64,000 nucleotides of DNA, taken from positions 310,001 to 374,000 of the forward strand of contig NZ_JABAGQ010000003.1 of NCBI RefSeq assembly GCF_012844225.1, written 5' to 3'. The position numbers and the translations under genes were made by a program. A model generated the notes under the pieces. It ran no database searches. It worked only from the letters and a program-made list of their open reading frames with translations, and had not been told where the DNA came from. Below, in pieces: positions 36,534 through 62,007 of the stretch (the first letter of the stretch is position 1; every line of letters begins with the position of its first letter). This DNA is from Rhodococcus sp. 105337. Its GTDB lineage: Bacteria > Actinomycetota > Actinomycetes > Mycobacteriales > Mycobacteriaceae.

Positions 36534-36552
36534 CCGGACGACGAGGACTGCC

Positions 36553-41038: not shown

Positions 41039-42051
41039 CGCGTACCGCGATCGCGGCCGGCATCTACGCCCTCGTCATGACGCTGATCCTCGGCGGGTTG
41101 TTCGTCGTCTTCGGTCAGGTGCGCTTCGGCGACTACACCCGGTATCACGCTGTGTTCGAGGACGTGTCCGGACTCGAGCCGGGTCAGTTCGTCCGGGTGT
41201 CCGGCGTGGAAGTGGGGCAGGTGGAGAAGGTCGAGTTCGCCGACGGAAACCGCATCGACGTCGTCTTCGAGGTCGACTCCGTCTACACGCCGACCCGGGC
41301 GACCGTCGCGACGGTCCGTTACCTCAACCTCGTCGGCGACCGTTATCTCGAATTGTCCGATGGTCCGGGAGAACTCGTCCCGATGAGTGCCGGCGAGACG
41401 ATCGGTCCCGAACGGACCCGCCCGGCACTGGACCTGGACGTGCTCGTCGGCAGTTTCACACCGCTGTTCCGCGCGCTCGACCCGGACCAGGTCAACCGGC
41501 TGTCCGCAGATCTCATCTCCGTACTGCACGGCCAGGGCGGAACGGTGGAGTCGGTGCTTGCCCATGCCGCGTCCCTGACGTCGGCCATCGCCGACCGGGA
41601 TCTCCTGGTCGGGCAGGTGATCACGAACCTGAACGCGGTGCTGGCCACTCTCGCTGCGCACCGTGACACGTTCGACGCCGCACTCGTGCGCGCGCAGGAA
41701 CTGCTGTCGGGACTTGCGCAGGATTCGGTGATGCTGGGCGAGTCGGTCACCCGTCTCGATGCGGCGAGCGGATCCGTCGCGGACCTCCTCGGCCGGACGC
41801 GCTCCCCGCTTGCCGGTACGCTCCGCGAAACCGAACTCGTAGCGGCACAACTGGAGTCCCGCAGCGACACCATCGACAGCCTGGCGACACGCCTGCCCGA
41901 TGCGTACGCCGCGCTCACCAGACTCGGCGCCTACGGCGGGTTCTTCAACTACTACCTGTGCGGAATGCTCATCAAGGTCAGCGACCCTTCCGGCAACACC
42001 GTCACCTCGCCCCTGTTCGGTCAGACGACGGGCAGGTGCGCTCCGGCATGA
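41035..42051 (+). CDS. MCE family protein, B subunit of the second operon
   Basis: The 338-residue protein has a membrane helix (AAGIYALVMTLILGGLFVVF), the MCE domain (RYHAVFEDVSGLEPGQFVRVSGVEVGQV) and YLNLVGDRYLELSDG. It ends in the B-type motif GAYGGFFNYYLC...GRCAPA, including the conserved cysteine pair seen in mce4B. ATGA overlap with the A gene. Part of the hexameric lipid importer. Confidence 0.91.
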   Translation: MTRTAIAAGIYALVMTLILGGLFVVFGQVRFGDYTRYHAVFEDVSGLEPGQFVRVSGVEVGQVEKVEFADGNRIDVVFEVDSVYTPTRATVATVRYLNLVGDRYLELSDGPGELVPMSAGETIGPERTRPALDLDVLVGSFTPLFRALDPDQVNRLSADLISVLHGQGGTVESVLAHAASLTSAIADRDLLVGQVITNLNAVLATLAAHRDTFDAALVRAQELLSGLAQDSVMLGESVTRLDAASGSVADLLGRTRSPLAGTLRETELVAAQLESRSDTIDSLATRLPDAYAALTRLGAYGGFFNYYLCGMLIKVSDPSGNTVTSPLFGQTTGRCAPA

Positions 42052-43067
42052 CACAGTTCCGCGACATGAATCCCACCCGCGTGGGTGTGATCGGCACGGT
42101 CGTGCTGATCGTTCTCGTGCTGTGCGCCCTGAACATCCGGTCACTGCCGCTGTTCGACTCCGGGTCCACCTATCGCGCGCGTTTCGTCGACGCCGGCGGT
42201 CTGAACCCCGGGGACGCCGTGCAGGTGTCGGGCAAGGACGCCGGCCGTGTGCTCGACATCGTCATCGACCACGACGCCGTCGCCGTCACATTCACCGTCG
42301 ACCAGCGGGTCACACTCGGCACCGACACGACCGTCGACATCGCGACCGCCACCGCACTGGGTGCACGGCACCTGCGCGTACGTCCGGCAGGTCCGGGGAG
42401 ACTCGAACCGGGCAGCACGATGGACCTCGACCGGACCACCGCCCCGTACCAGCTGACGGACGCCCTCGGTGATCTCGCCGATACCGCAGCCGAACTCGAC
42501 GCCGAACAGCTCCGTACCTCGATGCGCGTGCTGTCCGACACCCTGCGCGAGACACCCGACGACGTCGGTGCCGCCGTGGACGGGGTGATGCGCCTGTCCG
42601 AGACGGTGGCGAGCCGCGACGCCTCGTTGCGCGAACTGCTCACGCACGCGGAGCAGGTCACCGCGGTGCTCGCCGAGCGCAGCGACGCTATCGACTCGCT
42701 CATCGTCGACGCCGACCTCGTGCTCGGCGAACTCGACCGCCGTCGCGCAGCACTCGACACGTTGTTCGCCAACGTCGACGCGTTGTCCGTGGAGATCTCG
42801 AACCTGGTCGCAGACAACGAGGCCCAGCTGACGCCCACGCTGACCACGGTCAACGCGGTTCTTGCCGTCCTCGAACGCAACCGCGACAACATCGCGCTCG
42901 CCATCGAAAGGCTCGGTCCGTACGCGACCGAACTCGGCGAGGCGGTCGCGTCGGGCCCGTTCTTCAACTCCTACATCCAGAATCTGCTGCCGATGCAGAT
43001 CATCGAACCGGCCCTCACGCGGGCGCTCGACGATGCCGGTATCACCGTTCCGGGAGGTACTCCGTGA
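42048..43067 (+). CDS. MCE family protein, C subunit of the second operon
   Basis: The 339-residue protein has a membrane helix (VGVIGTVVLIVLVLCALNI), an MCE domain (TYRARFVDAGGLNPGDAVQVSGKDAGRV), helical stalk, and the C-type end SGPFFNSYIQNLLP, matching mce4C. Start ATG 42048 overlaps the B stop. The proline/acidic tail is shorter than in mce4C. Confidence 0.91.
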   Translation: MTQFRDMNPTRVGVIGTVVLIVLVLCALNIRSLPLFDSGSTYRARFVDAGGLNPGDAVQVSGKDAGRVLDIVIDHDAVAVTFTVDQRVTLGTDTTVDIATATALGARHLRVRPAGPGRLEPGSTMDLDRTTAPYQLTDALGDLADTAAELDAEQLRTSMRVLSDTLRETPDDVGAAVDGVMRLSETVASRDASLRELLTHAEQVTAVLAERSDAIDSLIVDADLVLGELDRRRAALDTLFANVDALSVEISNLVADNEAQLTPTLTTVNAVLAVLERNRDNIALAIERLGPYATELGEAVASGPFFNSYIQNLLPMQIIEPALTRALDDAGITVPGGTP

Positions 43068-44275
43068 AGCGGAGCACAGGGTTCCTGACGTGGGTGGTGC
43101 CGCTGCTCGTCCTGGCGGTGATCGCCGTCGTGTCGTTCACCGTCGTGCCGTGGCGTGCGACCGACGAGTATTCCGCGGAGTTCACGACTGCACGTGGCCT
43201 GTACGTCGGCGACGATGTGCGCATCATGGGGGTCGAGGTCGGACGGATCACCGGCATCGAACCGCGCGGCGACCGGGTGCTGGTGACATTCACCGTCGAC
43301 GCAGCCCATCGCATCCCGGCCGCCGCGGAGGCCGCGCTCATGGCGCCGACACTGGTCTCGGCCCGCTTCCTCCAGATCACTCCGCCCTACACCGGCGGCC
43401 CCGAACTCGCTCCCGGCTCGAGCATTCCGCTCGACCGCACAGCGGTACCCGTCGAATGGGACGAGATCACCGCCCAACTGGCTCGCCTGACCACCGAACT
43501 CGGTCCGGCCGACGACGATGCGCGGGGGCCACTCGGTGAGGTGCTCGACGTCGCCGCCGACAATGCCGAGGGGCACGGCCCCGCGATCCGCGATTCTCTG
43601 CGGGAACTGTCGGCCGCGATGCGCACCGTCTCGGACGGCCGTAGCGACCTCTTCGGCACGCTGGGCAACCTGCAGGTGTTCGTCGACGCGCTGTCGGCGA
43701 GCGGCGACCAGATCGTGTCCTTCCACGACCGGCTTTCTGCGGTGACGGATGTCCTGGACGCGAACCGCGACGAGATGGGCGCTGCGCTGGCCGGACTCGA
43801 CACCGTGCTCGTCGATGTCGAACGGTTCGTCCGCACCAATCGCGAGGAGATCGACACGACCGTGGATCGCACCGCTGTGCTCGCCGAGACGCTCGCGGCA
43901 CAGCGTGACGGCATCGCCCAGGTGCTCCATGTCGCGCCGACCGCATTGTCGAACCTGCAGAACATCTACCAGCCGGCCCACAACACCGTCGTGTCGGCGC
44001 TCGCGCTGACCAACTTTGCGAACCCGGCCCAGTTCATCTGCTCGGCACTGGCCGCTGCGGAACAGGTGGACGCCCACACCGGTTCCGAACTGTGCGTGCA
44101 ATACCTGGGCCCGATCCTTCCGCTGCTCGCGACGGAGTATCCGCCGGCGCGCATCAATCCCACCCGGGGTGTGGGCGCGCTGCCCGACCAACTCGTCTAC
44201 ACCGAGCCGGATCTCGCACCGGGCGCCCCGGCACCCACCGACCTGACCGAACTCTTCTCGCCGGGGTCGCCGTGA
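43064..44275 (+). CDS. MCE family protein, D subunit of the second operon
   Basis: The 403-residue protein has a membrane helix (WVVPLLVLAVIAVVSFTVV), MCE domain (YSAEFTTARGLYVGDDVRIMGVEVGRI) and the D-type region NLQNIYQPAHNTVVSALALTNFANPAQFICS. GTG 43064 overlaps the C stop. It is 46 residues shorter than mce4D, mostly from loss of the Pro/Ala-rich tail. Confidence 0.91.
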   Translation: MKRSTGFLTWVVPLLVLAVIAVVSFTVVPWRATDEYSAEFTTARGLYVGDDVRIMGVEVGRITGIEPRGDRVLVTFTVDAAHRIPAAAEAALMAPTLVSARFLQITPPYTGGPELAPGSSIPLDRTAVPVEWDEITAQLARLTTELGPADDDARGPLGEVLDVAADNAEGHGPAIRDSLRELSAAMRTVSDGRSDLFGTLGNLQVFVDALSASGDQIVSFHDRLSAVTDVLDANRDEMGAALAGLDTVLVDVERFVRTNREEIDTTVDRTAVLAETLAAQRDGIAQVLHVAPTALSNLQNIYQPAHNTVVSALALTNFANPAQFICSALAAAEQVDAHTGSELCVQYLGPILPLLATEYPPARINPTRGVGALPDQLVYTEPDLAPGAPAPTDLTELFSPGSP

Positions 44276-45366
44276 GTACGCGCCCGGCGGTAGCGGCAGG
44301 CATGCTCGCGTGTGTTCTCGTGGTGACCGGATGCGACTGGCAAGGACTCAACTCGCTCGACCTGCCCGGCACGCGCGGGCACGGGGCGGACGCCTTCGAA
44401 GTCACCCTCGAGATGCCGGATGTGACGACACTGGAACGTAATTCGCGCGTACGCGTGGGTGACGTGACGGTCGGTCGCGTGTCGGGGCTTCGGTTGAGCA
44501 ACGGGCATGCCGAGGTGACGGTGATGCTGGACGGCTCCACCGTGCTGCCCGCCAACGCGAGTGCCGCAATCGGTCAGACGAGCCTGCTCGGCTCCGCACA
44601 CGTCGAACTGTCACCGCCGGTGGGCGAACCCGCACGCGGCCGTCTCGTGGACGGCGACGTCATCCCTCTGGAACGGTCGAGTGCTTTTCCCACCACCGAA
44701 CAGACGCTCTCGTCGCTCTCCCTGGTCCTCAGCGGCGGCGGGCTCGCGCAGGCTCAGGAGATCTCCCTCGAGCTCAACCGCGCGCTGGACGGACGACAGG
44801 AATCGACGCGTGCGGTGCTCGTCCGGCTCGACGCCGTACTGAGTGGACTCGATGCCCAGCGGAACGGGATCGTGAGCGCGATGGAGTCCATCGACGCACT
44901 TGCCGCGGAGGTTGCCGTGCACAACGACCGGATCGCCGCGGCCGCGGATCAACTCGCGCCTGCGCTCGAGGTGCTGGCGGCTCAGCGCGCGGAACTGACC
45001 CGTGCCGCCGATTCCCTCGGGCAGTTCGGGCGGGTCGCCACCGAGGTCGTCGAGGCGAGCGGCGACGACGTGGTGGCGAATCTGCGAGATCTCGAGCCCA
45101 TCCTGTCGTCACTGGCAGCCTCCGGCGACTCGCTGACCGAATCGCTGCGGTACCTGCTGACCTTCCCGTTCCCGATCGACACGTACCGCAACGCGGTTCG
45201 GGGCGACTATGCGAACGGCACCGTCATTCTCGATCTGACCCTGCCGACGCTCGAGAACGCGTTGCTGCTCGGCACTCCGTTCGAGGGTGCGCTCACCGGC
45301 GGTGCCGCTCCCCTCCCCGACCTGGTGTCGTTGCTCGTTCCCCCGTCAGGGGAGGCCCCGCGATGA
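44272..45366 (+). CDS. MCE family lipoprotein, E subunit of the second operon
   Basis: The 364-residue protein has a lipoprotein signal (AAGMLACVLVVTGC, cysteine near residue 21), then CDWQGLNS, the MCE domain (PDVTTLERNSRVRVGDVTVGRV), GQTSLLGSAHVEL, and GEPARGRLVDGD, each nearly identical in place to mce4E. GTG 44272 overlaps the D stop. It lacks the long Pro-rich tail of mce4E. Confidence 0.91.
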   Translation: MSTRPAVAAGMLACVLVVTGCDWQGLNSLDLPGTRGHGADAFEVTLEMPDVTTLERNSRVRVGDVTVGRVSGLRLSNGHAEVTVMLDGSTVLPANASAAIGQTSLLGSAHVELSPPVGEPARGRLVDGDVIPLERSSAFPTTEQTLSSLSLVLSGGGLAQAQEISLELNRALDGRQESTRAVLVRLDAVLSGLDAQRNGIVSAMESIDALAAEVAVHNDRIAAAADQLAPALEVLAAQRAELTRAADSLGQFGRVATEVVEASGDDVVANLRDLEPILSSLAASGDSLTESLRYLLTFPFPIDTYRNAVRGDYANGTVILDLTLPTLENALLLGTPFEGALTGGAAPLPDLVSLLVPPSGEAPR

Positions 45367-46574
45367 GTCCTACCGCGGCGTTGCGAACCCGCCTGCTCGC
45401 GTTCTTCGCGATCGGACTCGCTGCCGTCCTCGTCGTCGCGCTGTGGGTCGTGGAGGTGCCTCGCCTGGTCGGCATCGGCCGCTACGACGTCCGGCTGGAA
45501 CTCACCGACGGAGCCGGTCTGTACCCGTCGGCCAACGTGACCTACCGCGGAGTCGAGATCGGGCGCGTGACCGCTGTGACGATGACGATCGGCGGTGCGG
45601 AAGCCGTGCTGTCCCTCGATTCGGGCGTACCCGTCCCCGCGGACGCCGCGGTTCAGGTCCGGAGCATGTCGGCCATCGGCGAGCAGTACGTCGAGTTCCT
45701 GCCTGCCGGCGCCGACGCGCCGTACCTGGGCGACGGTGACGTCGTCGGGTCCGACCGTGTGTCGGTGCCCGAGCCCATCGGACGGGCACTCGATCAACTC
45801 GACAGCACCTTGCAGTCGGTCGGGACCGACCGTCTGTCCGTGCTGCTCGACGAAACCCACTCCGCTGTCGCCGATTCGGACGACGCGTTGCGGACGCTCA
45901 TCGAGTCTGCGGCGGCAGTGAGCGGTGAGGCAGCCGCGAGCATCGACAGCACGGCGACCCTGCTGGATCAGGTCGGGCCGCTGCTCGAGACACAGGTGGC
46001 ATCCTCGGACGCCATCACCCGATGGGCATCGTCACTCGCCGGCACGACCGGGCAACTCCGTGACTCCGACACCGATATCCGCACCCTGCTCGGGGTCGGC
46101 GCGCCTGCCGCCGCGCAGGTGCAGGCATTGTTCGAGGACGCCGAACCCACCCTGCCCCTGCTCCTGGCGAACCTCATCACGGTCGAGCAGGTCGCGGCGG
46201 TGTATCAACCGTCGCTCGAGCAGATACTCGTGCTCTTCCCCTCGATCATGGCGTCGACACAGTCCGCCGGCCTGCCCAACGTCGACAACCCGGCGCAGAA
46301 CACGTATTTCGTCAATTCGTACAACGATCCGCCGCCGTGTATCAGCGGGTTCCTGCCACCGGAGCAACGCCGGTCGCCCACCGAACTCGACGTTCCGGAA
46401 ACCCCGCCGGATCTGTACTGCACGTTGCCGGCCGATTCGCCGGTCGCGGTGCGCGGGGCACGGAACATGCCGTGCATCGAGTACCCGGGACGACGGGCAC
46501 CGACCGTGCAATTGTGTCGCGACGGTGGATACCCGGCCACCGGGCTGGAAGATCTGCTGACGCCGACGGGCTGA
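45363..46574 (+). CDS. MCE family protein, F subunit of the second operon
   Basis: The 403-residue protein has an N-terminal membrane helix (LLAFFAIGLAAVLVVALWV), the MCE domain (RYDVRLELTDGAGLYPSANVTYRGVEIGRV), EQYVEFLP and an F-type tail with PPCISGFLPPEQRRSP and IEYPGRRAPT. It stops soon after that motif, while mce4F carries about 70 more residues. It is the last gene of this operon; no Mce-associated protein follows, unlike the mce4 set. Confidence 0.91.
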   Translation: MSPTAALRTRLLAFFAIGLAAVLVVALWVVEVPRLVGIGRYDVRLELTDGAGLYPSANVTYRGVEIGRVTAVTMTIGGAEAVLSLDSGVPVPADAAVQVRSMSAIGEQYVEFLPAGADAPYLGDGDVVGSDRVSVPEPIGRALDQLDSTLQSVGTDRLSVLLDETHSAVADSDDALRTLIESAAAVSGEAAASIDSTATLLDQVGPLLETQVASSDAITRWASSLAGTTGQLRDSDTDIRTLLGVGAPAAAQVQALFEDAEPTLPLLLANLITVEQVAAVYQPSLEQILVLFPSIMASTQSAGLPNVDNPAQNTYFVNSYNDPPPCISGFLPPEQRRSPTELDVPETPPDLYCTLPADSPVAVRGARNMPCIEYPGRRAPTVQLCRDGGYPATGLEDLLTPTG

Positions 46575-47847: not shown

Positions 47848-47861
47848 TGGAACAGGTTCTA
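47848..47861. promoter_or_regulatory. KstR-like operator before the nitronate monooxygenase-family gene
   Basis: TGGAACAGGTTCTA fits TnnAACnnGTTnnA at all fixed positions and lies 30 bases before the start codon. This brings the flavoprotein into the predicted steroid regulon, separately from the CoA-transferase operon that ends at 47914. Confidence 0.78.
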
Positions 47862-47913: not shown

Positions 47914-49164
47914 TCAGATGATCCCGCGCTCGCGGAGCGCGTCCTGCTCGGCCTCGGCGAGTCCGAGGATGTCGCCGTAGACGGCGGCATTGTCGTAACC
48001 GGCGATCGGTGCGCCCGCCATGCGAACCGATCCGGGTGTGCCGGCGAGGACCGGCACGACACCAGGCCCGAGCACGTCGCGGCCCGTGCGCTCGTCGTGG
48101 TGCGGCACAAGCATTCCGCGGGCCTGGAACTGCGGATCGCGCACCACTTCCGCGACCGTGTTGACCGGACCGGCGACGACGCCCGCCGCAGACAGGTGTG
48201 CGAGCAGGTCGTCGAGCGTCCAGGTCGCCGCCCATCGCCCGATCAGTGCGTCGAGTTCGTCCTGGTTGGTGCCGCGGGAAAGGTGGTCGGCGAAACGCGG
48301 GTCGTCTGCGAGTTCCGGGGAGTCCATCGCAGCGCACAGCCTCCGGAAGACGGTGTCCTGGTTGGCGGCGATGACGATCCACATGTCGTCGGCTGTCCGG
48401 TAGAGATTCGACGGGGCGATCCCCTCGAGGCGGGTGCCGGACGGGCCCCGTACCACGCCGGCGGCGTCGTAGTCGGGCACCACGGATTCCTGGACCGCGA
48501 AGCACGCTTCCGTCAATGCGACGTCCACGATCTGTCCACGTCCCGTGCGTTCACGGCTGAGCAGCGCGGCGAGCACCCCCTGGACGGCGAACATGCCACC
48601 GAGGGTGTCGCCGAGGGACAGCGCGAGTCGCGGCGGGGCCTGCCCGGGATAGCCGTTGAGGTGCCGCAGACCGCTCTCGGCCTCGGCGACCGACGCGTAA
48701 CCCGCGTGCCCGGCCTTGGGACCGGTCTGCCCGTACCCGGACACGCGGGCCAGGACGAGGCCCGGATTGATCTCGGACAGCACGTCGTACCCGAGTCCCC
48801 ACTTCTCGAGGGTGCCCGGCCGGAAGTTCTCGACGATGACGTCCGATTCGGCGACCAGGCGCCGGAACAGTTCCTGACCGTCTGGAGCGCGCAGATCGAG
48901 AGTGATGCAGCGCTTGTTGCGGGCGTGCACCGTCCAGAAGAATCGGTGCCCGTCCCGCTCGCCCTGTCCCCATGTACGCAGCGGGTCGGGACGAGCGGGA
49001 TCCTCGATCTTGATGACGTCTGCGCCCATGTCGCCGAGCAGGCGTCCGGCGAACGGACCCGCGATCAGGGTGCCCAGTTCGAGCACCCTGATGTCCGCGA
49101 GCGCACCGGTGCCTGCCGTCGTCTGCGCCGAATCACCCTGCGTACCTGCGTTACCGGATTGCAC
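47914..49164 (-). CDS. CaiB/BaiF class III CoA-transferase
   Basis: The 416-residue protein has class III CoA-transferase features: LADIRVLELGTLIAGPFAGRLLGDMGADVIKIE, ENFRPGTLEKWGLGYD, SGYGQTGP and the LSLGDTLGG region, where Asp186 is the expected covalent acyl-carrying aspartate. These enzymes move CoA between carboxylic acids and are close to 2-methylacyl-CoA racemases, so either reaction is possible. GTG 49164 gives a short disordered N-terminus before the fold. It is the last gene of the seven-gene operon, 20 bases after the aldehyde dehydrogenase, suggesting it activates the acid that enzyme makes. Confidence 0.87.
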   Translation of the reverse strand: MQSGNAGTQGDSAQTTAGTGALADIRVLELGTLIAGPFAGRLLGDMGADVIKIEDPARPDPLRTWGQGERDGHRFFWTVHARNKRCITLDLRAPDGQELFRRLVAESDVIVENFRPGTLEKWGLGYDVLSEINPGLVLARVSGYGQTGPKAGHAGYASVAEAESGLRHLNGYPGQAPPRLALSLGDTLGGMFAVQGVLAALLSRERTGRGQIVDVALTEACFAVQESVVPDYDAAGVVRGPSGTRLEGIAPSNLYRTADDMWIVIAANQDTVFRRLCAAMDSPELADDPRFADHLSRGTNQDELDALIGRWAATWTLDDLLAHLSAAGVVAGPVNTVAEVVRDPQFQARGMLVPHHDERTGRDVLGPGVVPVLAGTPGSVRMAGAPIAGYDNAAVYGDILGLAEAEQDALRERGII

Positions 49165-49184
49165 TGTGTTGCCTGTTCCTTCGG

Positions 49185-50666
49185 TCAGTAACCGAGGTGA
49201 ACCGTCTTCTCCTCGGTGAACGCTTCGAGGCCGCTGCGGCCCAGTTCGCGGCCGATACCGCTGGCGTCGCGCCCGCCCCAGGGTAGCGCCGGGTCGGGCA
49301 CTCCCCAGCCGTTGACCCACACCGTTCCGACCCGCAACTGCGGGATGACGCTGTGCACCGTGGAGAGGTTCTGGCTGAAGATGAAGGCGTTGAGGCCGTA
49401 CTTGGTGGTGTTCGCGAGCCGGACCGCCTCGTCGGTGGTCTTGAACGTGATGACCGTGGCGACCGGGCCGAAGATCTCGTCCTGCGCGATGGTGAGGTCG
49501 TTCGTGCCGCGGAACACGGTGGGTTCGACGAAGAAACCGCGGTCGCCGATGCGGGATCCTCCGGTGACGAGCTGGGCGCCCTCACTGCGCCCCTTCTCGA
49601 TGTAGCCGAGGATGCGGTCGAGTTGCTTGCGATTGACGATCGTGCCCTGGGTGCTGGCCGGGTCGAAGGGGTCGCCGACGACCGCGTTGCGGGCGAACTC
49701 GACGAGCCCTTCCACCACCTGGTCGGCGATCGACTCGTGCACGATCACCCTCGTACCCGCCGCGCACACCTGGCCCTGGTGGTAGAAGTTGCCCATCGCG
49801 ATCCACGGCAGCGACGCGTCGAGGTCCGCGTCCGGGAAGATCAACTGCGGGGCCTTGCCGCCCAGCTCGAGGGTGACCTTCCGGAACTTCTCGCCCGCGA
49901 GCGAGGTGATGGTCTTTCCGACCGCGGGGCTTCCCGTGAAAGTGATCTTGTCGATGCCGGTGTGCGCGGCGAGCGCAGCACCGGCCTCGGGACCGAGCCC
50001 GGGCACGACGTTGAACGCACCGTCGGGCACACCGGCTTCGGCGAGCAGGTCGGCCAGCCTGAGCGTCGCCAGCGATGCGTCCTCTGCGGGTTTGACCACC
50101 ACCGAGCATCCGGCTGCGAGCGCGGGTGCGATCTTCCAGGCCGCAACCACGGTCGGGTTGTTCCACGGTGTGATCGCACCGACCACGCCGAGAGGCTGCC
50201 GCAGCGTGAATCCGAATCGGTGCTGGGGGCCGACATCCGGAAGGATCATCGCCTCGCCGGCAATCTTGTCGGCCCAGCCGGCGTAATGACGGAACGACGC
50301 GGCGGCAGCGGGAATGTCACCGGCCACGGTGTCGGCGTAGAGCTTTCCCATCTCCGCTGTCTCGAGCGCGGACAACTCGGGCGCGTGCTGTTCGAGGAGA
50401 TCCGCCACGCGCGTGAGGATTCGCCCACGCTCGGCGCCGGGCATGCGCGACCACACTCCGGACTCGAAGGTGTCGCGGGCCGCGTCGACGGCGGCGTCGA
50501 TGTCTGCGGCGCCGCCCGCTGCCACTTCGGCGACGACTTCTTCGGTCGCCGGATTGATCGACGAGAAGTGTGCACCGGACTGCGCCGGGACGGTCCGCCC
50601 TCCGATACGCAGGCCGGAGTCGGGAATTGTGACGGGGGCGGGGACGGGGGTGGAGAGGTCGGTCAT
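49185..50666 (-). CDS. Aldehyde dehydrogenase (ALDH superfamily)
   Basis: The 493-residue protein is a typical NAD(P)-dependent aldehyde dehydrogenase: TPWNNP, VVKPAEDASL, TGSPAVGK, Glu267 in LELGGKAP and nucleophile Cys301 in GQVCAAGTR, then EIFGPV near the C-terminus. It oxidises an aldehyde to an acid in the cytoplasm. It lies 9 bases after hmgA and 20 before the CoA-transferase. In this context the aldehyde could be the product of oxidative C=C cleavage by the DUF2236 protein, but the substrate is not shown by sequence. Confidence 0.93.
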   Translation of the reverse strand: MTDLSTPVPAPVTIPDSGLRIGGRTVPAQSGAHFSSINPATEEVVAEVAAGGAADIDAAVDAARDTFESGVWSRMPGAERGRILTRVADLLEQHAPELSALETAEMGKLYADTVAGDIPAAAASFRHYAGWADKIAGEAMILPDVGPQHRFGFTLRQPLGVVGAITPWNNPTVVAAWKIAPALAAGCSVVVKPAEDASLATLRLADLLAEAGVPDGAFNVVPGLGPEAGAALAAHTGIDKITFTGSPAVGKTITSLAGEKFRKVTLELGGKAPQLIFPDADLDASLPWIAMGNFYHQGQVCAAGTRVIVHESIADQVVEGLVEFARNAVVGDPFDPASTQGTIVNRKQLDRILGYIEKGRSEGAQLVTGGSRIGDRGFFVEPTVFRGTNDLTIAQDEIFGPVATVITFKTTDEAVRLANTTKYGLNAFIFSQNLSTVHSVIPQLRVGTVWVNGWGVPDPALPWGGRDASGIGRELGRSGLEAFTEEKTVHLGY

Positions 50667-50675
50667 CGGGACTCC

Positions 50676-52013
50676 TCAGGAAGAAGGCGGGGTGAAGCGA
50701 CGGATGAGCCCGGACCACGACGCGTCGTAGTCCGTCTGACGGTGCGCACAGCGGTAGGCGGCGTCGGTCACGGTGAGCGCCGATCGCGTCTCGAACATGA
50801 ACGAGAGGGTGTTCTCGAGCTTGACCGGTACCAGGTCGGCCGCGGTGGCAAGGTCGAACGTCTCCGCATCGGGACCATGCGCGCCCCACTGGTTGTGGAG
50901 GGACGCACCGCCGGGTACGAACCCCTCGGCCTTCGAATCGTGGCGCCCGCGTACGAGTCCCATGAACTCGGTCATGACGTTGCGGTGGAAATGCGGTGGC
51001 CGGAAGGTGCGCTCCGCAACCACCCACCGGTCGGGGAAGACACAGAAATCGACGTTCGCCTGGCCCGGTATCGGCGTCGGGGAGGTAAGCACGGTGAAGA
51101 TCGACGGGTCGGGATGGTCCCACCCCGCGGTGGTCATCGCGTTGAACCTGCCGAGGTCGTACTTGTAGGCACCGTGCGTGCCGTGCCAGGCGACCACGTC
51201 GAGTGGGGAATGATCCAGCTCGGTCGCCCAGATCTGTCCACCGAACTTGTTCACCAGTTCGACAGGTCCGTTCCGGTCCTCGTACCAGGCGGTGGGATAG
51301 AGGAAGTCGCGTGCGTGTGCGAGACCGTTCGCCCCGATGGGGCCGAGTTCGGGCAGCGCATAGGCAGACCCGTAATTCTCACAGACGTAGCCCGACGCCC
51401 GTTCCCCCAGCAGCTCGACGCGGAACCGCACGCCACGGCCGATCACCGCGATCTCACCCGGGCCGACCGCGAGGCGCCCGAATTCCGTGCAGAGCAGCAG
51501 TTCACCGTCCTGCGGGACGAACAGCAGTTCCCCGTCGGAGTCGACGAAGTACCGGTCGGTCATCGACGACGACATGGAATAGAGGTGTACGGCTATGCCG
51601 GTGCGGGCGTGGACGTCGCCGTTGACGGCGTAGGTGATGATCCCGTCCACGAAATCCGTCCCGGGTGCCGGTGGAGGCAGCGGATCCCACCGGATCCGGT
51701 TGGGGGTGAGCACGCCTCCGGACGCCGGCGCCGACACCCAGCCACGGCTGTCGACGCGCTCGAACGGCCCGTGCGCGGCAGACGGCATGATCCGGTAGGT
51801 CCATGTTCTGCGGTTGTGTTCGCGTGGTTCGGTGAACGCGGTCGCCGAGTGCTGCTCGGCGTACAAACCGTACGGCGCACGCTGGGGGGAATTCTGCCCC
51901 CACGGCAGCGAACCCTCGACGGCCTCGCTGTGATGCTCGTTGCCGAATCCCCGCAGATAGGAAAGACCCGGCGGATCGTCGACCTCCACGCGACCGTCGC
52001 TGCCTCCGCTCAC
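50676..52013 (-). CDS. hmgA: Homogentisate 1,2-dioxygenase
   Basis: The 445-residue protein matches HGD through its whole length: [12 protein letters not shown] near the N-terminus, [16 protein letters not shown], and the iron ligands His343 (HFHRN), Glu349 (MTEFMG) and His379 (GAHGPD), which correspond to His335, Glu341 and His371 of the human enzyme. It opens the homogentisate ring with O2 to maleylacetoacetate. The usual partners (maleylacetoacetate isomerase, fumarylacetoacetase) are not in the window. GTG 52013 overlaps the preceding stop (GTGA), so it belongs to the MCO/DUF2236 operon. A related hydroquinone rather than homogentisate itself is possible. Confidence 0.92.
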
Positions 52014-53065
52014 GTGAGCGCGACCATCTCGTGCAGTGTGGTCCCGGTACGGACGTACTCCTCGCCATCGACCGTGACCGTCATCGTGAAATCCGACCGG
52101 AATCGGAAGTACCCCGGGCGGCCGACGAGTCGATTGACGATCGGCTTCACCAGCGCGCTCGAGGCGAGCGGTACGTCTTCGAGAAGATTGTGGGCGTGCA
52201 CGATGTCGCGGACGGTGAGCTTCAGATCGAGCGAGCCCGGAACACGGATCCGCAGCCACGACGGATAGGTGCGATCGGCGACCGGGTCGAAGACCGCGGG
52301 GCCCTCGGTCATCTCGACCTCGCCGTTGCTGAGCACGATCCGGTCGTCCCGGGCGATCATCACCGGCTGCGACCAGTGGGCACCGTATTTCTTCTGGGTG
52401 TGCACCATCGCGTACACGAGGGAGAAGTCGTCGGTGTACAACCTGCCCCAGTACCACTTGTCGATGACACGCTTCATGTCACCGACACCCCAGTTGTGGT
52501 CGTGGTAGCCGCGACCGGTGACCTCGGTGGTGACGCCGTCGACCGTCACAGTGCCGGCGACAGAGGCCCGAGGCGCGCCCACGACCCAGGCGAAGAACTC
52601 GCGGTCGTTGTAACTCGTCCGGCCCCTGCCCGGCATCCACGGCGGAATCAGGACGGTGAACGTCAGATCGAATCCGAGGCCGCCCTCGGAGACGGCGACA
52701 CGGTAGATCGGCTTGCCCTCGTCCTCTCCGACGAGACGTGCCGTGTTGTGCGCGACCCGCACGTCGCAGCGTTCCTCCGACACCGTGAGGTCCGAGTCAC
52801 GGTACTGCCGGATCTCCTCCCTGCGCTGCCCGTCGGGCGAGTAGATGTGGATCTCCACTCCGGGTCTGCGGTGCACCAGTTCCCGCGTCTGCACCATCGC
52901 GACGACGATCCGGCCGTCGTCGAGATGTGCGTCGAAATACCAGTGTTCGAAGGCGTGTTTCTCGCTGGAAGGATGAGCGGCATTGTCTTTCGGTCCGACG
53001 ACGGTGATCTCGCCGTCACGGCGTCCCGGTCCGTTCCAGGCTTCGACGATCTGTAGAGCGGGCAT
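52010..53065 (-). CDS. CrtC/AttH-like lipocalin-fold protein (hydroxyneurosporene synthase family)
   Basis: The 351-residue protein fits the CrtC-like group: [21 protein letters not shown] near residue 40, IPPWMPGRG, the diagnostic [10 protein letters not shown] near residues 187-196 and [20 protein letters not shown]. CrtC adds water to a C=C bond of carotenoids, and this two-lobed lipocalin fold is shared with tocopherol cyclase-like proteins. No signal peptide is seen. ATG 53065 has a GGAG ribosome-binding site, 81 bases after the DUF2236 gene. Its isoprenoid-handling relatives point to a terpenoid or prenyl substrate. Confidence 0.8.
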
Positions 53066-53146
53066 GGGTTGTCTCCAAGAGTTCGGGTGTCGGCGGGGTA
53101 CTTGTCACACTGTGCGGTCGAGCCGCCCGCTCGATCGCATGTCCGA

Positions 53147-54433
53147 TCAACGACGCAGCGCACCGCTGGCGTCGAATTGTGCTTCGCGGCCGTCCATTTG
53201 GGCTCGGTACCAGTTCTCCCGGTGGACGACCATGATCTTCTCGTGCAGCGTGCCCACGCCCGGCACGAATCGCCGGGCGAGTTCCATGAGCGTGATCAGC
53301 GGGAACCGCACAACCGGGATGAGGATCCACGGCAGCACCTTCGGCATCGAGTATTTCCGCCGGGTGCCGGGCGACATGAACATCGCCGAGTACACCGAGT
53401 TGATGCGGAAATTGTATTTCGCACGGAGCAGGGCGAGACCACGGTGCCCTTCTCGCGGAGCGAACGCCTGCGGGTACGACTCGATGAGTTCCTTGCCGTA
53501 CTCCCCCGAGTCGTACGACCGCGACACGACGGTGGTGAGCAACGTCCGCACGCTGTCGCCGATCGTCTCGGGGTACCAGGTCGTCCGCACACCGAGGAGG
53601 TAGCCCATGTACTTCTGGAAGTGGATGAGCGCCCGTATTTCTCGCGGTGTGGTGTGGTAGCCGAGAGTCCACAGTGCCAGCCCCGGAGTCACGCTGCCCG
53701 CGATGAGCGTGAGCAGCATGTAGGTCTGGCTGATGGGAAGTCCCCATTTGGCGGCGTCCCATTCGGGGTGCCCGGCCACGCGGGCACGTACGGAGACATG
53801 CATGATCCGCACCTTCAGCGCCGTGGCCCGGCCGCGCGATCCGGCGGCGAGAAGCGCGCCGGGCTCGGACACGTCGATCCAGAACCGCGAGGTTTCGAGG
53901 AATCGGCGCAGAGCGTTGTCGCCCGCGTAACCGCCGGCGAGCGAGAGCGGTGTCGCGACAGCGGATTCCGTATAGATTTCGAGAGTTTCCGCACCTGCGA
54001 AGCTGAACAGCATCGTGCCCCAGCGCCGCCAGATCTCGGCGCCCTGTTCCACGAGTTCCGGCTGCACCCATTCGGGGACGGTCTCGAACTCGTCGAACAG
54101 CGCCTTCATCGCGTCGGGTGCCTCGGGAACGGAGTCGATGCCCTCCGTCAGGGCCCGCTCGAGCAGTGCGCGGGCCGCCTGGGGGCCGAGGTCACCGTGG
54201 TAGACCTCGTCCACGAAGCGCTCCGCGGTGGGGTCGCCACTGTAGAGGTCGTTGCACAGTGCGCGAGCCTGCTCGTCGGTGGGAAGGATGTCGAAGCCCG
54301 TCACGGCGCGAATCAGTCCCCGTACCCGCCGGACACCGGGCCGGGCCTTCGCCTGCCAGTAGGGGAACGCGCTCGGGCAGCGGTCCGGGGTATCCGATTC
54401 CCCGGATGCGCGTGTTTCCAGTGTTCCGGTCAT
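53147..54433 (-). CDS. DUF2236 oxygenase, MpaB/latex-clearing-protein-like
   Basis: The 428-residue protein is a DUF2236 (MpaB/Lcp) protein: mostly helical, with GDNALRRFLETSRFWIDV, GRATALKVRIMHVSVRARV (probable haem-ligand histidine in RIMH), TYMLLTLIAGSVTPGLALWTLGY and KYMGYLLGVRTTWYP. Lcp is a haem-b enzyme that cleaves polyisoprene double bonds into aldehyde and ketone ends, and MpaB cleaves a farnesyl chain of a phenolic meroterpenoid. No Tat or Sec signal is present, so it acts inside the cell, unlike Lcp. ATG 54433 overlaps the preceding gene by ATGA. Confidence 0.83.
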   Translation of the reverse strand: MTGTLETRASGESDTPDRCPSAFPYWQAKARPGVRRVRGLIRAVTGFDILPTDEQARALCNDLYSGDPTAERFVDEVYHGDLGPQAARALLERALTEGIDSVPEAPDAMKALFDEFETVPEWVQPELVEQGAEIWRRWGTMLFSFAGAETLEIYTESAVATPLSLAGGYAGDNALRRFLETSRFWIDVSEPGALLAAGSRGRATALKVRIMHVSVRARVAGHPEWDAAKWGLPISQTYMLLTLIAGSVTPGLALWTLGYHTTPREIRALIHFQKYMGYLLGVRTTWYPETIGDSVRTLLTTVVSRSYDSGEYGKELIESYPQAFAPREGHRGLALLRAKYNFRINSVYSAMFMSPGTRRKYSMPKVLPWILIPVVRFPLITLMELARRFVPGVGTLHEKIMVVHRENWYRAQMDGREAQFDASGALRR

Positions 54434-55614
54434 GCCGACGCCTCCTCGGCTCGGTCGTCTGTCACCGTGCGGCGGCTCCATCCGGTCAGGCGGCTCACGA
54501 CGTCATCGAGGCCACCCGGTTGGTCCACCAGGTAATGGTTGAGGTTGCGCATCTCGATCAGTTCCGCCTCTCCCGGCAGGGCATCACGCATGAGACGCGA
54601 ATCCTCGGCGAAAGCGGCCTGGTCGCCGAGCAGGCTCATCACGAGCGCCGGCGCGGTGACGTTGCTCAGATCGGTCAGTGCGTCGGCGTGCGTGTGGTCG
54701 ACGCTCCAGGTGCTGAGCCAACTGCGCACCGTCACGAATCGGGCGAGTCCTCCGGCGGCGGTGTTCGCGGCGGCCGGATCGCCGTACATGCTGCCGGCCT
54801 CTCGGTCCGACGGGTCGAGGGTGGTATCCACGAACCGCGGGTCTCCGACGGTGCGATGCACCACGAACCCACGGTCGGACGCGCCCACCCGGTTCAGTTC
54901 GTCGAGTTGCCCGAGAGCCCACGCGTCGATGCGGCGCATCCGGGCGAGTTGCGCGTCGCGGTAGCGGGCGACCCACTCGCGGTCGAGCGGTACCGTCCGG
55001 CCCGGCGCGTACAGGTCGAGGTCGGGATCGGTCGCATACGGGTCGGCCTCGTCGACGACGGCGCCGTCGATCCAGTGCCGCAGCACCCGCGCCCGTCCGG
55101 GGTGAGCTCCGACGAGCAGCAGTCCGTCGGCGGGGCGCAGTTTCGCGTCGGCGAACCGGGCGGGATCGCCGGCGGGGGTCTGCGTGACCGTGGGGTTCTC
55201 CGCCTGCGACTGGTAGAACGAGGCCAGCGAGCCCCCGCCGCTGAACCCGAGCAGCACCACCTTCTCGAAACCGAGTTCGTCCGTCATCCATCGCACGCCG
55301 GTACCGAGGTCGAACGCCGCGCGCTCCATGATGAGAGCGGGTTCGTTGGATGCGTACCGGGTGTTGAGGCCCATCGCCGGGATGCCGGCGCCGGCGAACG
55401 CGCGAAGCAGGAAGTGACTGAGGAAGTTCGACGCCGGATGGCACATGATCACGCCGACCTCGCGTGAGTATCCGGGTGCCGCTACGAGGTTGCCGTGGAG
55501 CGTCGGATAGTGGCGGCTCAGACCGGAGTGCATCTCGACGCGGCCGTCCGTCGCCGGTTCGTAGGGAATGCGCTGGAAGTGGTCGCGGGGTTCGGGGCCT
55601 GTCGTGGGGTTCAT
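54430..55614 (-). CDS. Alpha/beta hydrolase of the multicopper-oxidase operon
   Basis: The 394-residue protein has a clear alpha/beta-hydrolase nucleophile elbow LLGFSGGGSLASFY, upstream RYASNEPALIMERAAFDLG, an acidic region LMSLLGDQAAFAEDSRLM and a C-terminal His in NLNHYLVDQPGG. It could hydrolyse an ester, lactone or C-C bond of a pathway intermediate. There is no signal peptide. ATG 55614 overlaps the multicopper oxidase stop, and its end overlaps the DUF2236 gene, so all three are translated together. No specific subfamily was recognised. Confidence 0.78.
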   Translation of the reverse strand: MNPTTGPEPRDHFQRIPYEPATDGRVEMHSGLSRHYPTLHGNLVAAPGYSREVGVIMCHPASNFLSHFLLRAFAGAGIPAMGLNTRYASNEPALIMERAAFDLGTGVRWMTDELGFEKVVLLGFSGGGSLASFYQSQAENPTVTQTPAGDPARFADAKLRPADGLLLVGAHPGRARVLRHWIDGAVVDEADPYATDPDLDLYAPGRTVPLDREWVARYRDAQLARMRRIDAWALGQLDELNRVGASDRGFVVHRTVGDPRFVDTTLDPSDREAGSMYGDPAAANTAAGGLARFVTVRSWLSTWSVDHTHADALTDLSNVTAPALVMSLLGDQAAFAEDSRLMRDALPGEAELIEMRNLNHYLVDQPGGLDDVVSRLTGWSRRTVTDDRAEEASA

Positions 55615-57398
55615 CGCACCGTCCGATACTCGAGCATCATGTCGTGGTCTTCGTGGTCGAGGACGTGGCAGTGCCACACGTAGCCCTGCAACCGGTGGTC
55701 GTCCCGGTGTTCCGTGTGTTCGTGGTGCCCGGCACTCTCGGTCGTTGCGGTGCCGACCGCAGCCGGGAACGTCGCGTCGGGATCGAAGCCCAGTTCGTCG
55801 GCGGTCGGGAAGTAGGCGACGATGCGGGTCACCGAATTCGGATCACAGATCACGGTGTCCTTGTATCCGGTCTCCCACGGCTCGGGGCCACGCAGTGGTT
55901 CCACGACGAACGGATCGGCGTCGGGGGTCCACTTGGTGCCGATCGGCGGCTGCGGTTGCCGCGCGCACATCGCGAGGGTGTCGATCGCCTGGCGTCCCAC
56001 GACGCGAAAGTGCACGAGGTGCAGGTGGATCGGGTGCGGGTCGGGTGTCGCGTTGACGATGTTCCACTGCTCGACGGTGCCCTGCCGGGGCATCTCGATA
56101 TCGTCGCTGTGGAATCTGAGATTGTTGAGCGACATGATCGACGGGGGTAGCCGTACGTCCGACGGCTGACTCAGCGACACGTTGCGAATGTGCGCGGGTT
56201 CCGGCGTGGCTCCCACGATCGGCGGTTGCCCGGTGCCGCCGCGCAGTCGGTCCGGTACCGGTCCGGTGAAGCCGCGCGCGGCCTCGGCCCGGAAACGCAG
56301 AAACATCGGCATGTGCACGGCACCGATCTGGGCGGCTTGGGGTGCGGCCGATTCGGTGTTGCGGAGTTCGACGGTGGCGCCGGGTTCGAGCATGCCGAAA
56401 TCCACCAGCAGGTCTACGCGTTCGCCCGGTGCCAGCCGTACGTGGGTGGTCGGTGCGGGAGCGTCGAGCAGTCCGCCTTCCATCCCGATGACCCAGAACG
56501 GCATGCCGTTGGAAAAACGCAGATCCCACACACTGAAGGACGCGGCATTGACCAACCGCAGTCGGTAGAGGCCCCGTGCCACCCGCGCCTCGGGCCAGAT
56601 CTTGCCGTTGACGACGCCGACGTCACCGACCGCGCCGCCTTCCCACCTACCCTGCGGAACGATCGGGGTGGAGCGGATGCTCTGGCGTCCGTCGCCGTGG
56701 ACGATCTTCTCCTGCAGTACCAGTTCGAGTTCGAACTCACCGGCCGGCAGTCCGAGCGGGTTGCCGCGTTCTCCGGTGTCGTAGTCGTCGCGGAGCAGGT
56801 ACACACCCGCCAGCCCGGCATAGACGTTCAGGCGCGTAACAGCCATGGCGTGGTCGTGGTACCAGAGCCCGGCCGCATCCTGCCTGTTCGGGAAGCGGTA
56901 CGTCGATCCCTCTCCCGGTCGCGCGATCTTCTGAGGGTGACCGTCGAATTCGGGAGGCGTCACGCCGCCGTGCAGGTGCATCGATGTGGGCACCTCGGTG
57001 CGGTCCCGCTCGCTCAGCCCGTGCAGGGTGGTGTCGACGTCGGCAGCAAACGGATGCACAGTGATCCGGTTCCGGTATTCGATCGCCGTTTCCTGTCCGC
57101 GGTGCGCGGTGATCACCGGACCGAGATACGTGCTGTCTCCGTAGGCCAGGGTCGGACCGGGCGCGAGGTCGCGGTGGAAGCTGTGTGTCGCGCTCACCGC
57201 GTCGATCGTCAGCGACGAGCCCTCGAGCCTCGGGAGGATGGGAAGGTCGTCGACGAACGGCGTCAGCCGGGGCGACGGGAAAAGCATAGGACGGGGCAGG
57301 TCGGGGCTGTCGGCGACCGCACGACCGCCGACCAGCGCGCTTGCGCCGGCGCCGGCTGCGATTCCGGCGAGAAGAGTTCTGCGACTGATATTCCGCAT
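55611..57398 (-). CDS. Tat-exported multicopper oxidase
   Basis: The 595-residue protein starts with a twin-arginine signal (SRRTLLAGIAAGAGASALVGG) and carries all four copper motifs of laccase-like oxidases: MHLHGGVTPPEFDGHP, WYHDHAMAVTRLN, HPIHLHLVHFRVVG, and the C-terminal HCHVLDHEDHDMM. It should oxidise phenols, hydroquinones or metal ions with reduction of O2 to water outside the membrane. It is the first gene of a seven-gene operon. ATG 57398 is chosen because the Tat signal begins there; a longer frame reaches 57644. A TetR-type palindrome lies 69 bases upstream. Confidence 0.88.
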   Translation of the reverse strand: MRNISRRTLLAGIAAGAGASALVGGRAVADSPDLPRPMLFPSPRLTPFVDDLPILPRLEGSSLTIDAVSATHSFHRDLAPGPTLAYGDSTYLGPVITAHRGQETAIEYRNRITVHPFAADVDTTLHGLSERDRTEVPTSMHLHGGVTPPEFDGHPQKIARPGEGSTYRFPNRQDAAGLWYHDHAMAVTRLNVYAGLAGVYLLRDDYDTGERGNPLGLPAGEFELELVLQEKIVHGDGRQSIRSTPIVPQGRWEGGAVGDVGVVNGKIWPEARVARGLYRLRLVNAASFSVWDLRFSNGMPFWVIGMEGGLLDAPAPTTHVRLAPGERVDLLVDFGMLEPGATVELRNTESAAPQAAQIGAVHMPMFLRFRAEAARGFTGPVPDRLRGGTGQPPIVGATPEPAHIRNVSLSQPSDVRLPPSIMSLNNLRFHSDDIEMPRQGTVEQWNIVNATPDPHPIHLHLVHFRVVGRQAIDTLAMCARQPQPPIGTKWTPDADPFVVEPLRGPEPWETGYKDTVICDPNSVTRIVAYFPTADELGFDPDATFPAAVGTATTESAGHHEHTEHRDDHRLQGYVWHCHVLDHEDHDMMLEYRTVR

Positions 57399-57466
57399 GG
57401 ACCAGGCTTCCGTTTTCACGCGACCGCAGCCGAGAAGGGAGCACATTTCGTGACTGCCGTCACAAT

Positions 57467-57481
57467 ACCATACGGTATGGT
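57467..57481. promoter_or_regulatory. 15-bp palindrome, candidate TetR operator
   Basis: ACCATAC-G-GTATGGT is a perfect 7+1+7 inverted repeat in the gap between the multicopper oxidase gene and the divergent TetR gene. Position and form suit a TetR dimer controlling both transcripts. Confidence 0.7.
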
Positions 57482-57658
57482 GTGGTCGACGTTCCGTCCT
57501 GGCCGCGATCGCTGTAGTCGACATGATGATCTGTATTGCAGTGTGCCGGAAGGCCGTTCGATACCCTCTCGGGGTGCGCGGTATCGCTCGCCCACGTTCT
57601 CTTTTCCCGCGACATGTACGCTCGACGCGTACAGCGAGAGACAAGAGGTGACGACCCC

Positions 57659-58240
57659 GTGGCGCAGCAACCGACGAAGGACGGCTCGCGGTCCGGGCGG
57701 CGCCCCCGGCTTTCCCTCGACGACTGGACCGCGGCCGGGTTGCAGTTGCTCGTCACCGAAGGCCGCACTGCCGTGAAGATCTCCAGATTGTGCGACGAAC
57801 TCGGCGTCACCAAGGGCAGTTTCTATTGGCACTTCACCGACATCGACGACCTGATGAAGGCCATCGCCACCCGGTACACCTCACAAGACAACGACGCTGC
57901 CCGCGGCCTGACGAGCGTCGAAGAACTGCCCGTCCGGGAACGGCTGACGCGCATGGGCACGATGCTCGTCGACGACCGCGCCTGGGAGGCCGAGGTGGCG
58001 GTGCGCGAGTGGGCGCGGAGCGACCCGCAGGTCGCCGAATCCGTGCGCGCCCTCGATCAGAGAATCATGACGGTGGTCGAGAACGCGTTCCTCGAACTCG
58101 GTTTCGACAAGGACGAGGCACGGGTCCGCGCCGGGACACTGGTGTACGCGGGGATCGGATTCGTGTACGGCCGCGACGGATTGCCCTCCCCCACGGTCGA
58201 GCAGATTCAGGCGCTGCTCACGATTCTGGTCCGCAAGTAG
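57659..58240 (+). CDS. TetR/AcrR family regulator of the multicopper-oxidase operon
   Basis: The 193-residue protein has an N-terminal TetR HTH (SLDDWTAAGLQLLV, ISRLCDELGVTKGSFYWHFTDIDDLMKAI) and a helical ligand-binding domain. GTG 57659 gives the shortest clean N-terminus and has an AGAGG upstream; an in-frame ATG at 57614 would add 15 residues. It is divergent from the seven-gene operon with a perfect palindrome between, so I infer it represses that operon in response to the pathway substrate or an intermediate. Confidence 0.88.
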   Translation: MAQQPTKDGSRSGRRPRLSLDDWTAAGLQLLVTEGRTAVKISRLCDELGVTKGSFYWHFTDIDDLMKAIATRYTSQDNDAARGLTSVEELPVRERLTRMGTMLVDDRAWEAEVAVREWARSDPQVAESVRALDQRIMTVVENAFLELGFDKDEARVRAGTLVYAGIGFVYGRDGLPSPTVEQIQALLTILVRK

Positions 58241-59405: not shown

Positions 59406-59416
59406 CTCCCTGCCTC

Positions 59417-61075: not shown

Positions 61076-61085
61076 GCCACAAAAA

Positions 61086-61099
61086 TAGAACGTGTTACC
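61086..61099. promoter_or_regulatory. KstR-like operator in the fadD19/echA19 divergent promoter
   Basis: TAGAACGTGTTACC matches TnnAACnnGTTnnA except the last base. It lies 10 bases before fadD19 and 55 before echA19, so one site could control both genes. Confidence 0.75.
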
Positions 61100-61154
61100 G
61101 TTATTGACAAGACTTTACTGAGACCTATTTCACAACACCCGCCAGGAGTCCCCA

Positions 61155-61988: not shown

Positions 61989-62007
61989 TTCCCCATCGAA
62001 CCGGCGA

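Follow-up and report, generated by a model that had tools for sequence, protein, structure and literature searches.

The 64,000-nucleotide stretch of Rhodococcus sp. 105337 DNA analysed here (contig NZ_JABAGQ010000003.1; hereafter the window) contains a seven-gene minus-strand operon, a divergent TetR gene, and, between the two, a palindrome. The operon genes, all of which are open reading frames with stop codons in the window sequence, are transcribed in the order multicopper oxidase (MCO), alpha/beta hydrolase (ABH), MpaB/DUF2236 protein, CrtC-like protein, HmgA, aldehyde dehydrogenase (ALDH), and class III CoA-transferase. The features, in window coordinates, are:

47914..49164, minus strand: class III CoA-transferase, 416 amino acids (PF02515, E 5e-125; start and stop checked)
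49185..50666, minus strand: ALDH, 493 amino acids (Aldedh; NCBIfam)
50676..52013, minus strand: HmgA-type ring-cleavage dioxygenase, 445 amino acids (TIGR01015; GTG start overlapping the stop of the CrtC-like gene)
52010..53065, minus strand: CrtC-like lipocalin-fold protein, 351 amino acids (PF07143)
53147..54433, minus strand: protein of the MpaB/DUF2236 haem oxygenase family, 428 amino acids (PF09995, E 4.5e-14)
54430..55614, minus strand: ABH, 394 amino acids, putative ring-fission product hydrolase (fold model and alignment)
55611..57398, minus strand: CotA-type MCO, 595 amino acids (Cu-oxidase_2/3; PDB match)
57467-57481: perfect 15-bp palindrome ACCATACGGTATGGT, putative TetR operator, 69 bases upstream of the MCO start
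57659..58240, plus strand: divergent TetR-family regulator, 193 amino acids (PF00440)

Three junctions within the operon are 4-base overlaps, and the others are gaps of 81, 9, and 20 bases, so that the arrangement described in the initial annotation (seven minus-strand genes, overlapping or separated by at most 81 bases) is confirmed. Start codons were chosen by eye and by ortholog length. Families were assigned with Pfam and NCBIfam (Cu-oxidase_2/3, MPAB_Lcp_cat, CrtC, HgmA_N/C, TIGR01015, Aldedh, CoA_transf_3, and TetR_N) and agree with those first proposed; the one gene that had been left unnamed is the ABH gene.

The palindrome, which had been noted together with the divergent TetR gene, is present as a single exact copy in the 4.46-Mb genome. 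A genome-wide search for further operators gave none at 0–1 mismatches and one at 2 mismatches, and a reversed-pattern control also gave one. A copy with 0 or 1 mismatch lies near the first operon gene in 11/11 loci of the same genus (L033–L043), and copies with 1–2 mismatches are present in L048, L049, L095, L108, and L109; L050 has no copy within 3 mismatches, and L114 has 3-mismatch sites only.

Judged by MpaB, the operon is present in 12 of 18 genomes of the genus, the nearest named locus being that of R. coprophilus NBRC 100603 (ABH, 94%). For the same-genus sample, 11 loci of up to 20 kb each were fetched. All seven families are found in 10 of these, while the 11th (L043) lacks most of three genes; in L041 HmgA appears as two overlapping matches, and in L040 MCO, ABH, and ALDH are fragmented and the contig ends in the CoA-transferase gene. 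The same seven-family order is present in the other-genus loci L048, L108, L225, L229, and L231 (L231 and L108 being one genome). This recurrence, within the genus and in the same order in other genera, is far from a chance grouping.

Close HmgA homologues (E ≤ 1e-60) are present in 35 of 351 genomes of the family and in 10 of its 31 genera. From the 23 hits outside the genus, we fetched 16 further loci, 3 having been fetched earlier and 4 being left unfetched; MpaB adjacency was known beforehand for 15 of the 16, which include two genomes already represented (L231, R. spelaei, as L108; L234, Nocardia gamkensis, as L114). A five-gene core comprising ABH, MpaB, CrtC-like protein, HmgA, and ALDH is found in 16/16 of these loci, spanning eight other genera, although gene order differs among them, with the CrtC-like gene last in several. 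The co-occurrence in other genomes to which the initial annotation had looked therefore holds for this core; MCO and CoA-transferase are each present in 5 of the 16 loci, and TetR in 6. MpaB and the CrtC-like protein also occur apart from the remainder. Specifically, a TetR–MpaB–CrtC-like trio without HmgA is present in L044–L046 and L049, TetR and MpaB only in L047, and MpaB and the CrtC-like protein only in L052; all of these loci are from other genera, and none has HmgA, ABH, or mce. MpaB and the CrtC-like protein thus look like a module of their own, and the trio is perhaps a smaller relative of the operon system, for plain isoprenoids.

The operon HmgA scores 611.5 bits to TIGR01015, over the equivalog cut-off of 510.75, and 543 bits to a solved homogentisate dioxygenase (3zds), which we take to be the P. 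putida enzyme. Alignments show that the His-Glu-His Fe ligands are kept (in HRN, E, and HGPD), and that two His codons stand where other HmgA genes encode different residues:

50940..50942, minus strand: CAC codon for His, aligned with P. putida Tyr346 and specific to the operon (alignment)
50991..50993, minus strand: His codon CAT in RPP-H-FHRN, beside the Fe-ligand His (alignment)

According to PMC6337169, Tyr346 of P. putida HmgA contacts homogentisate. We surveyed these positions in 35 MpaB-linked rows (33 distinct genomes) and 28 unlinked rows, 20 of the latter seen with 1.5 kb flanks only. His is present at the Tyr346 place in 33/33 MpaB-linked genomes, the window's included, and in 0/28 unlinked homologues, of which 26 have Tyr and two (L073 and L171) have neither Tyr nor His. 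The RPP-associated His is present in all MpaB-linked rows except L216 and L219, which have Tyr, and the unlinked rows have Trp or Tyr at this position in 27 of 28 cases. A decayed HmgA copy in L241, without MpaB, carries both changes. In a tree made by a quick method from 34 linked and 26 unlinked rows (leaving out the duplicates L064 and L223 and the divergent rows L073 and L171), the MpaB-linked HmgAs form one clade with an SH-aLRT value of 99. At both positions His stands in for a bulky aromatic residue, which would suit a larger substrate, and, since the active site is altered, plain homogentisate is an unlikely substrate. The HmgA ring opening that had been proposed from the family name is thus upheld as to enzyme type and Fe ligands, and modified as to the active site.

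The tyrosine route lies elsewhere in the genome, on contig 9: HPPD (417.7 bits, cut-off 277) and a distant HmgA gene, the latter scoring just 58.9 bits to TIGR01015 and preceding an FAH gene (443.5 bits, cut-off 375.3), with enoyl-CoA hydratase-like and AMP-ligase-like genes farther along (judged by eye). This gene content resembles that of the R. ruber homogentisate (hmg) cluster (PMC6498646).

The operon is linked to an Mce importer, a partner that went unmentioned in the initial annotation and is more telling than the beta-oxidation genes named there:

38236..46574, plus strand: second mce cluster of the window (YrbE-Mce; MlaE/MlaD domains, MCE family)

Of the 16 further loci, 14 contain YrbE/Mce genes within the 20 kb (exceptions L230 and L234), as do 5 of 6 loci of an earlier set (exception L114) that shares two genomes with the 16. 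In controls run with the same queries and threshold, mce was found in 0/40 arbitrary 20-kb stretches, positioned manually in 20 genomes that carry the operon, in 0/15 MpaB loci without HmgA, and in 0/7 HmgA loci without MpaB (from other families of the order, two of them short contigs). In L232, L233, and L236, MceF ends 119–221 bases upstream of ABH on the same strand (aligned ends); in others one or two small genes intervene before ABH, and in L225 mce is on the opposite strand. Within the genus, 6 of 11 loci show mce, and the contigs of L037, L040, and L042 end too soon to reveal whether it is present. In other genera, the linked Mce proteins for the most part give higher scores against the cluster adjacent to the operon (38.2–46.6 kb) than against the other cluster of the window (23.6–32.5 kb). 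YrbE1 of L109 and, in L231, MceD and MceF are exceptions; this comparison covers 5 of the 7 genes (all except YrbE2 and MceA). The second mce cluster of the window is thus likely to be the ortholog of the operon-linked mce genes in other genera. Lipids are the cargo of Mce importers, among which the mce4 steroid transporter is the best known (PMC6498646), so the operon substrate is probably lipophilic.

The CrtC-like protein matches PF07143 with E 1.3e-6 (29.6 bits, cut-off 22.5). A Foldseek search with its structural model (pLDDT 81) gave kievitone hydratase as the top match (7a0t/7a0q, E ~1e-12, TM about 0.57), followed by an AttH protein, the fungal decalin cyclases CghA and Fsa2, and 25-phosphosteroid lyase, and a sequence search of the PDB gave 7a0q as the only match at E ≤ 1 (E 0.0012). 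Kievitone hydratase hydrates a prenyl double bond borne by a phenolic ring (PMC5805349), and the residues reported as essential in CrtC (PMC4717167) are His239, Trp241, Tyr266, and Asp268. Trp160, Tyr187, and Asp189 of the CrtC-like protein are invariant in 12 aligned rows and correspond to Trp241, Tyr266, and Asp268 of CrtC, a correspondence made by spacing and by alignment with kievitone hydratase, not by full alignment with CrtC. The protein therefore shares its fold and, by spacing, these three residues with kievitone hydratase and the carotenoid 1,2-hydratase CrtC, but differs from the former in having only ~14% identity and from both in its catabolic operon setting. Because kievitone hydratase is the nearest structure, the isoprenoid chemistry that the initial annotation had suggested for this protein is supported at the level of the model.

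MpaB belongs to DUF2236, the enzymes of which, as far as we know, cleave isoprenoids. Alignment with 5o1l/5o1m indicates that MpaB, like its operon orthologs, keeps the DUF2236 residues Arg164, Thr168, and His198. In Lcp, the DUF2236 Arg, Thr, and His build the haem site (PMC5522427 and PMC6311187). An export signal was looked for by eye in the N-terminus MTGTLETRASGESDTP, and none is visible. A plasmid origin of MpaB was also considered and rejected, as 12 plasmid records matched, every one at <60% identity.

The best solved-structure match of MCO is the laccase spore coat protein A (CotA; E 5e-77). MCO has four motifs, HLH, HDH, HPIHLH, and HCH...H...M (at 141, 179, 455, and 576), which we take to be the copper-ligand motifs. 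It shares these motifs with CotA-type laccases, but differs from them in its N-terminus, MRNISRRTLLAG, which by eye is a twin-arginine-like signal (SRRTLLAG), and in being a member of a ring-cleavage operon. The top NCBIfam model for ALDH is the phenylacetaldehyde dehydrogenase StyD (610 bits, under the cut-off of 800), a sub-cut-off match of the kind that might be expected for an enzyme with an arylacetaldehyde substrate.

ABH has no Pfam match at 0.001. Its structural model (pLDDT 88) has the alpha/beta hydrolase fold, and the triad Ser125-Asp331-His360 is invariant in 16 rows. In a Foldseek search, monoglyceride lipases and feruloyl esterases were among the first matches and HsaD was at rank 38, such that fold and triad, as modelled, do not decide between a C–C hydrolase and an esterase. 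We also scanned genome contigs for ABH relatives, obtaining 69 loci, and examined the neighbours in 60 of them at ≤56% ABH identity. ABH relatives lie beside HmgA-like genes in 2 of these 60 distant loci: in Croceicoccus sediminis (L171), an HmgA gene is followed by ABH, with LeuC/LeuD genes upstream, and in Prauserella (L144), ABH overlaps a gene that weakly resembles HmgA. In 28 of the 60 loci, the ABH relative has a member of one particular sequence cluster no more than three genes away; both of the members that were tested are VOC proteins (PF00903), for which the best NCBIfam match, catechol 2,3-dioxygenase, is weak (27 and 32 bits, cut-off 320). Some of the loci also carry recurrent CoA-transferase, HMGL-like, and LeuCD genes. 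This gene context fits a hydrolase of ring-fission products, the dicarboxylic half of which would then be hydrated or CoA-activated. This recurrence of ABH relatives with a small VOC protein and, in some cases, CoA-transferase, HMGL-like lyase, and LeuC/LeuD genes across L113–L172 (Zhongshania, Variovorax, Novosphingobium, SAR86, and others) may point to an undescribed ring-cleavage pathway in Proteobacteria.

In Rhodococcus, the operon lies within a sterol-type neighbourhood. At 23587–38190, the window contains a minus-strand mce cluster followed by SDR, acyl-CoA dehydrogenase, and FadD17-like genes, before the second mce cluster, and at 59417–63691, on the far side of the operon, it contains a PRK07798-type ligase gene and an ECH gene; we take these sets to be fadE26/27-fadD17-like and fadD19/echA19-like, respectively, and the order presumably resembles that of M. 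tuberculosis and rhodococcal sterol genes. The whole resembles a mycobacterial/rhodococcal sterol block into which the operon and the second mce cluster have been inserted. Two sites match what we take to be the KstR consensus, at 34153–34166 (before acyl-CoA dehydrogenase) and 47848–47861 (before a nitronate-monooxygenase-like gene), with 0.1 expected, and none is present at the operon promoter. Queries with the fadE27- and fadD17-like genes gave no match within the fetched 20 kb of the 16 other-genus loci. The adjacent beta-oxidation genes invoked in the initial annotation look like the Rhodococcus sterol block, a neighbourhood not seen in those loci. A paralogous pair of nitronate-monooxygenase/FabK-like genes (46688–47818 and 58293–59543) brackets the operon, and does likewise in 8 of 11 same-genus loci.

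Taken together, the observations support a dedicated catabolic operon other than tyrosine breakdown. We propose, at about even confidence, that it is TetR-controlled and Mce-fed and breaks down a prenylated hydroquinone, lipophilic in character, or a tocochromanol. We assign this substrate class from family resemblance and context. The prenyl-hydroquinone catabolism of the initial annotation accordingly gains a dedicated operon and, through the Mce link, a lipophilic substrate, the identity of which we infer. The scheme, the step chemistry of which is general knowledge and not a result of this analysis, would give every operon gene a role. An exported CotA-type laccase would oxidise a phenol or chromanol outside the cytoplasm, and the dedicated Mce transporter would import the aromatic lipid. 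The CrtC-like protein would hydrate (or, in reverse, dehydrate) the isoprenoid chain adjoining the ring, and the haem enzyme MpaB would cleave a chain double bond to give a branched ketone along with an arylacetaldehyde. From the latter, the StyD-like ALDH would form an arylacetic acid analogous to (methylated) homogentisate, and the His346-type HmgA would open the ring of this acid; ABH would split the ring-fission product without an isomerase, and CoA-transferase would activate the released acid. Plastoquinol, ubiquinol, menaquinol, and tocotrienol already have the alkene, and tocopherol could acquire one through laccase oxidation to tocopherylquinone and dehydration of the tertiary alcohol, or through a cyclase-type reaction run in reverse.

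Several observations weigh against this proposal. The MpaB family match is remote, the place of the Lcp distal ligand Lys167 is Glu in the operon MpaBs, and Lcp Glu148 is missing from MpaB as aligned, such that the Lcp likeness previously claimed extends to the haem core Arg, Thr, and His, and not to Lys167, Glu148, or export. Among Lcps, Lys167 is just 59% conserved (PMC5522427). The CrtC-like model is moderate (pLDDT 81; TM about 0.56–0.60), and Phe158, two residues before Trp160, occupies by spacing the place of CrtC His239. MCO and CoA-transferase, each in 5 of the 16 further loci, are not core. Of the 11 same-genus loci, two (L041 and L043) lack mce and have a FadD17-like gene next to NMO1. 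Some same-genus copies look damaged: in L043 (G013), most of ABH, HmgA, and ALDH is gone and MCO, MpaB, CrtC-like protein, and CoA-transferase are retained, and L241 (G009) has no MCO, ABH, MpaB, or CrtC-like match and has lost parts of HmgA and ALDH; together with L041 (G011), these copies indicate that the function is dispensable there, unless the assemblies are at fault. The association of His346 with MpaB is one evolutionary event kept under constraint, not repeated co-gain or convergence, because the linked HmgAs form one clade. An exported-looking alpha/beta-hydrolase-like gene (e.g. L034:5353-6204) has matches in 16 of 41 loci, where it mostly separates TetR from MCO, but has no copy in the window; one of the 16 is a remnant, one a weak match, and one from a duplicate genome. 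Its presence in relatives suggests that the natural substrate may be an ester. The sterol-type setting in Rhodococcus is a further such point.

The last two points bear on two other explanations. The operon could serve another lipophilic phenol (an alkylphenol, alkylresorcinol, cardanol-like compound, or plant phenolic ester), in which case MpaB and the CrtC-like protein would work on a chain that is not isoprenoid: Mce linkage indicates lipophilicity only, laccase, HmgA, and hydrolase are compatible with many phenols, and the exported hydrolase-like gene beside TetR in several relatives suggests an ester. We consider this possible but rather doubtful, as the characterised CrtC-fold hydratases nearest by fold use isoprenoid chains (though decalin cyclases have the same fold), the DUF2236 enzymes we know of cleave isoprenoids, and the MpaB/CrtC-like pair is also found apart from aromatic genes. 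That the operon is part of sterol or aromatic-steroid breakdown, as its position between mce4/fadE26-27/fadD17-like and fadD19/echA19-like genes, the sterol-type FadD, FadE, and SDR matches, and the two KstR-like sites (34153 and 47848) would have it, is improbable: the operon promoter has its own unique operator and no KstR-like site, the fadE27- and fadD17-like genes are unmatched in the 16 other-genus loci, the linked mce genes are mostly closer to the adjacent cluster than to the other one, and we know of no HmgA chemistry in steroid pathways. The operon shares with the mce4 sterol locus an Mce importer beside catabolic genes, but differs in its Mce cluster and enzymes and in having aromatic-ring and proposed isoprenoid chemistry.

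Two further explanations have very little to recommend them. For ordinary homogentisate/tyrosine breakdown with extra genes speaks the fact that the operon HmgA, and not the genome's second HmgA-like gene, passes the TIGR01015 equivalog cut-off; the operon, however, has neither FAH nor maleylacetoacetate isomerase, HPPD and the HmgA-FAH pair lie on another contig, with gene content like that of the R. ruber homogentisate cluster (PMC6498646), Tyr346 is replaced, and Mce is linked. Plain tyrosine breakdown, which had been named as one outcome that would overturn the original idea, is thus largely refuted, as HPPD and HmgA-FAH are encoded separately and the HmgA active site is altered. Compared with the bacterial homogentisate pathway (hmgABC), the operon shares the HmgA-type ring-opening family with its conserved Fe ligands, but differs in Tyr346 → His, absence of FAH and isomerase, use of another hydrolase, Mce link, and separate regulator. 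Rubber or polyisoprene use, with MpaB as a rubber oxygenase, is hardly more credible; it draws on DUF2236 membership and on the tie between Mce systems and uptake of rubber fragments (PMC6311187), but MpaB, unlike Lcp, has no visible export signal and has Glu for Lys167, and HmgA and laccase would be left unexplained.

Within the proposed prenylated-hydroquinone or tocochromanol catabolism, a more specific version is speculative: that the operon is the first genetic route by which bacteria completely mineralise tocochromanols and plastoquinone-type lipids. Here laccase would open the chromanol, giving a quinone that bears a tertiary alcohol; the CrtC-like enzyme would dehydrate this to an allylic alkene or open the chroman ring directly, MpaB would cut the product into an arylacetaldehyde and phytone, and the retuned HmgA, in a cell supplied by a dedicated Mce importer, would open methylated homogentisate. 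As the initial annotation had surmised, no operon or pathway of this kind is described in the open-licence literature, among the matches listed.

Plants and microbes are rich in tocopherols, plastoquinone, and other prenylquinones, lipids for which, among the same matches, no breakdown gene set was found described. If the proposal is correct, the cluster would supply a transporter and a reporter operator, as well as the genes, for testing prenylquinone breakdown, and would give roles to three little-characterised protein families, namely bacterial MpaB, the Rv3169/CrtC-like family, and the alpha/beta hydrolase. It would also define a subfamily of HmgA that current models label homogentisate dioxygenase and that probably acts on another substrate.

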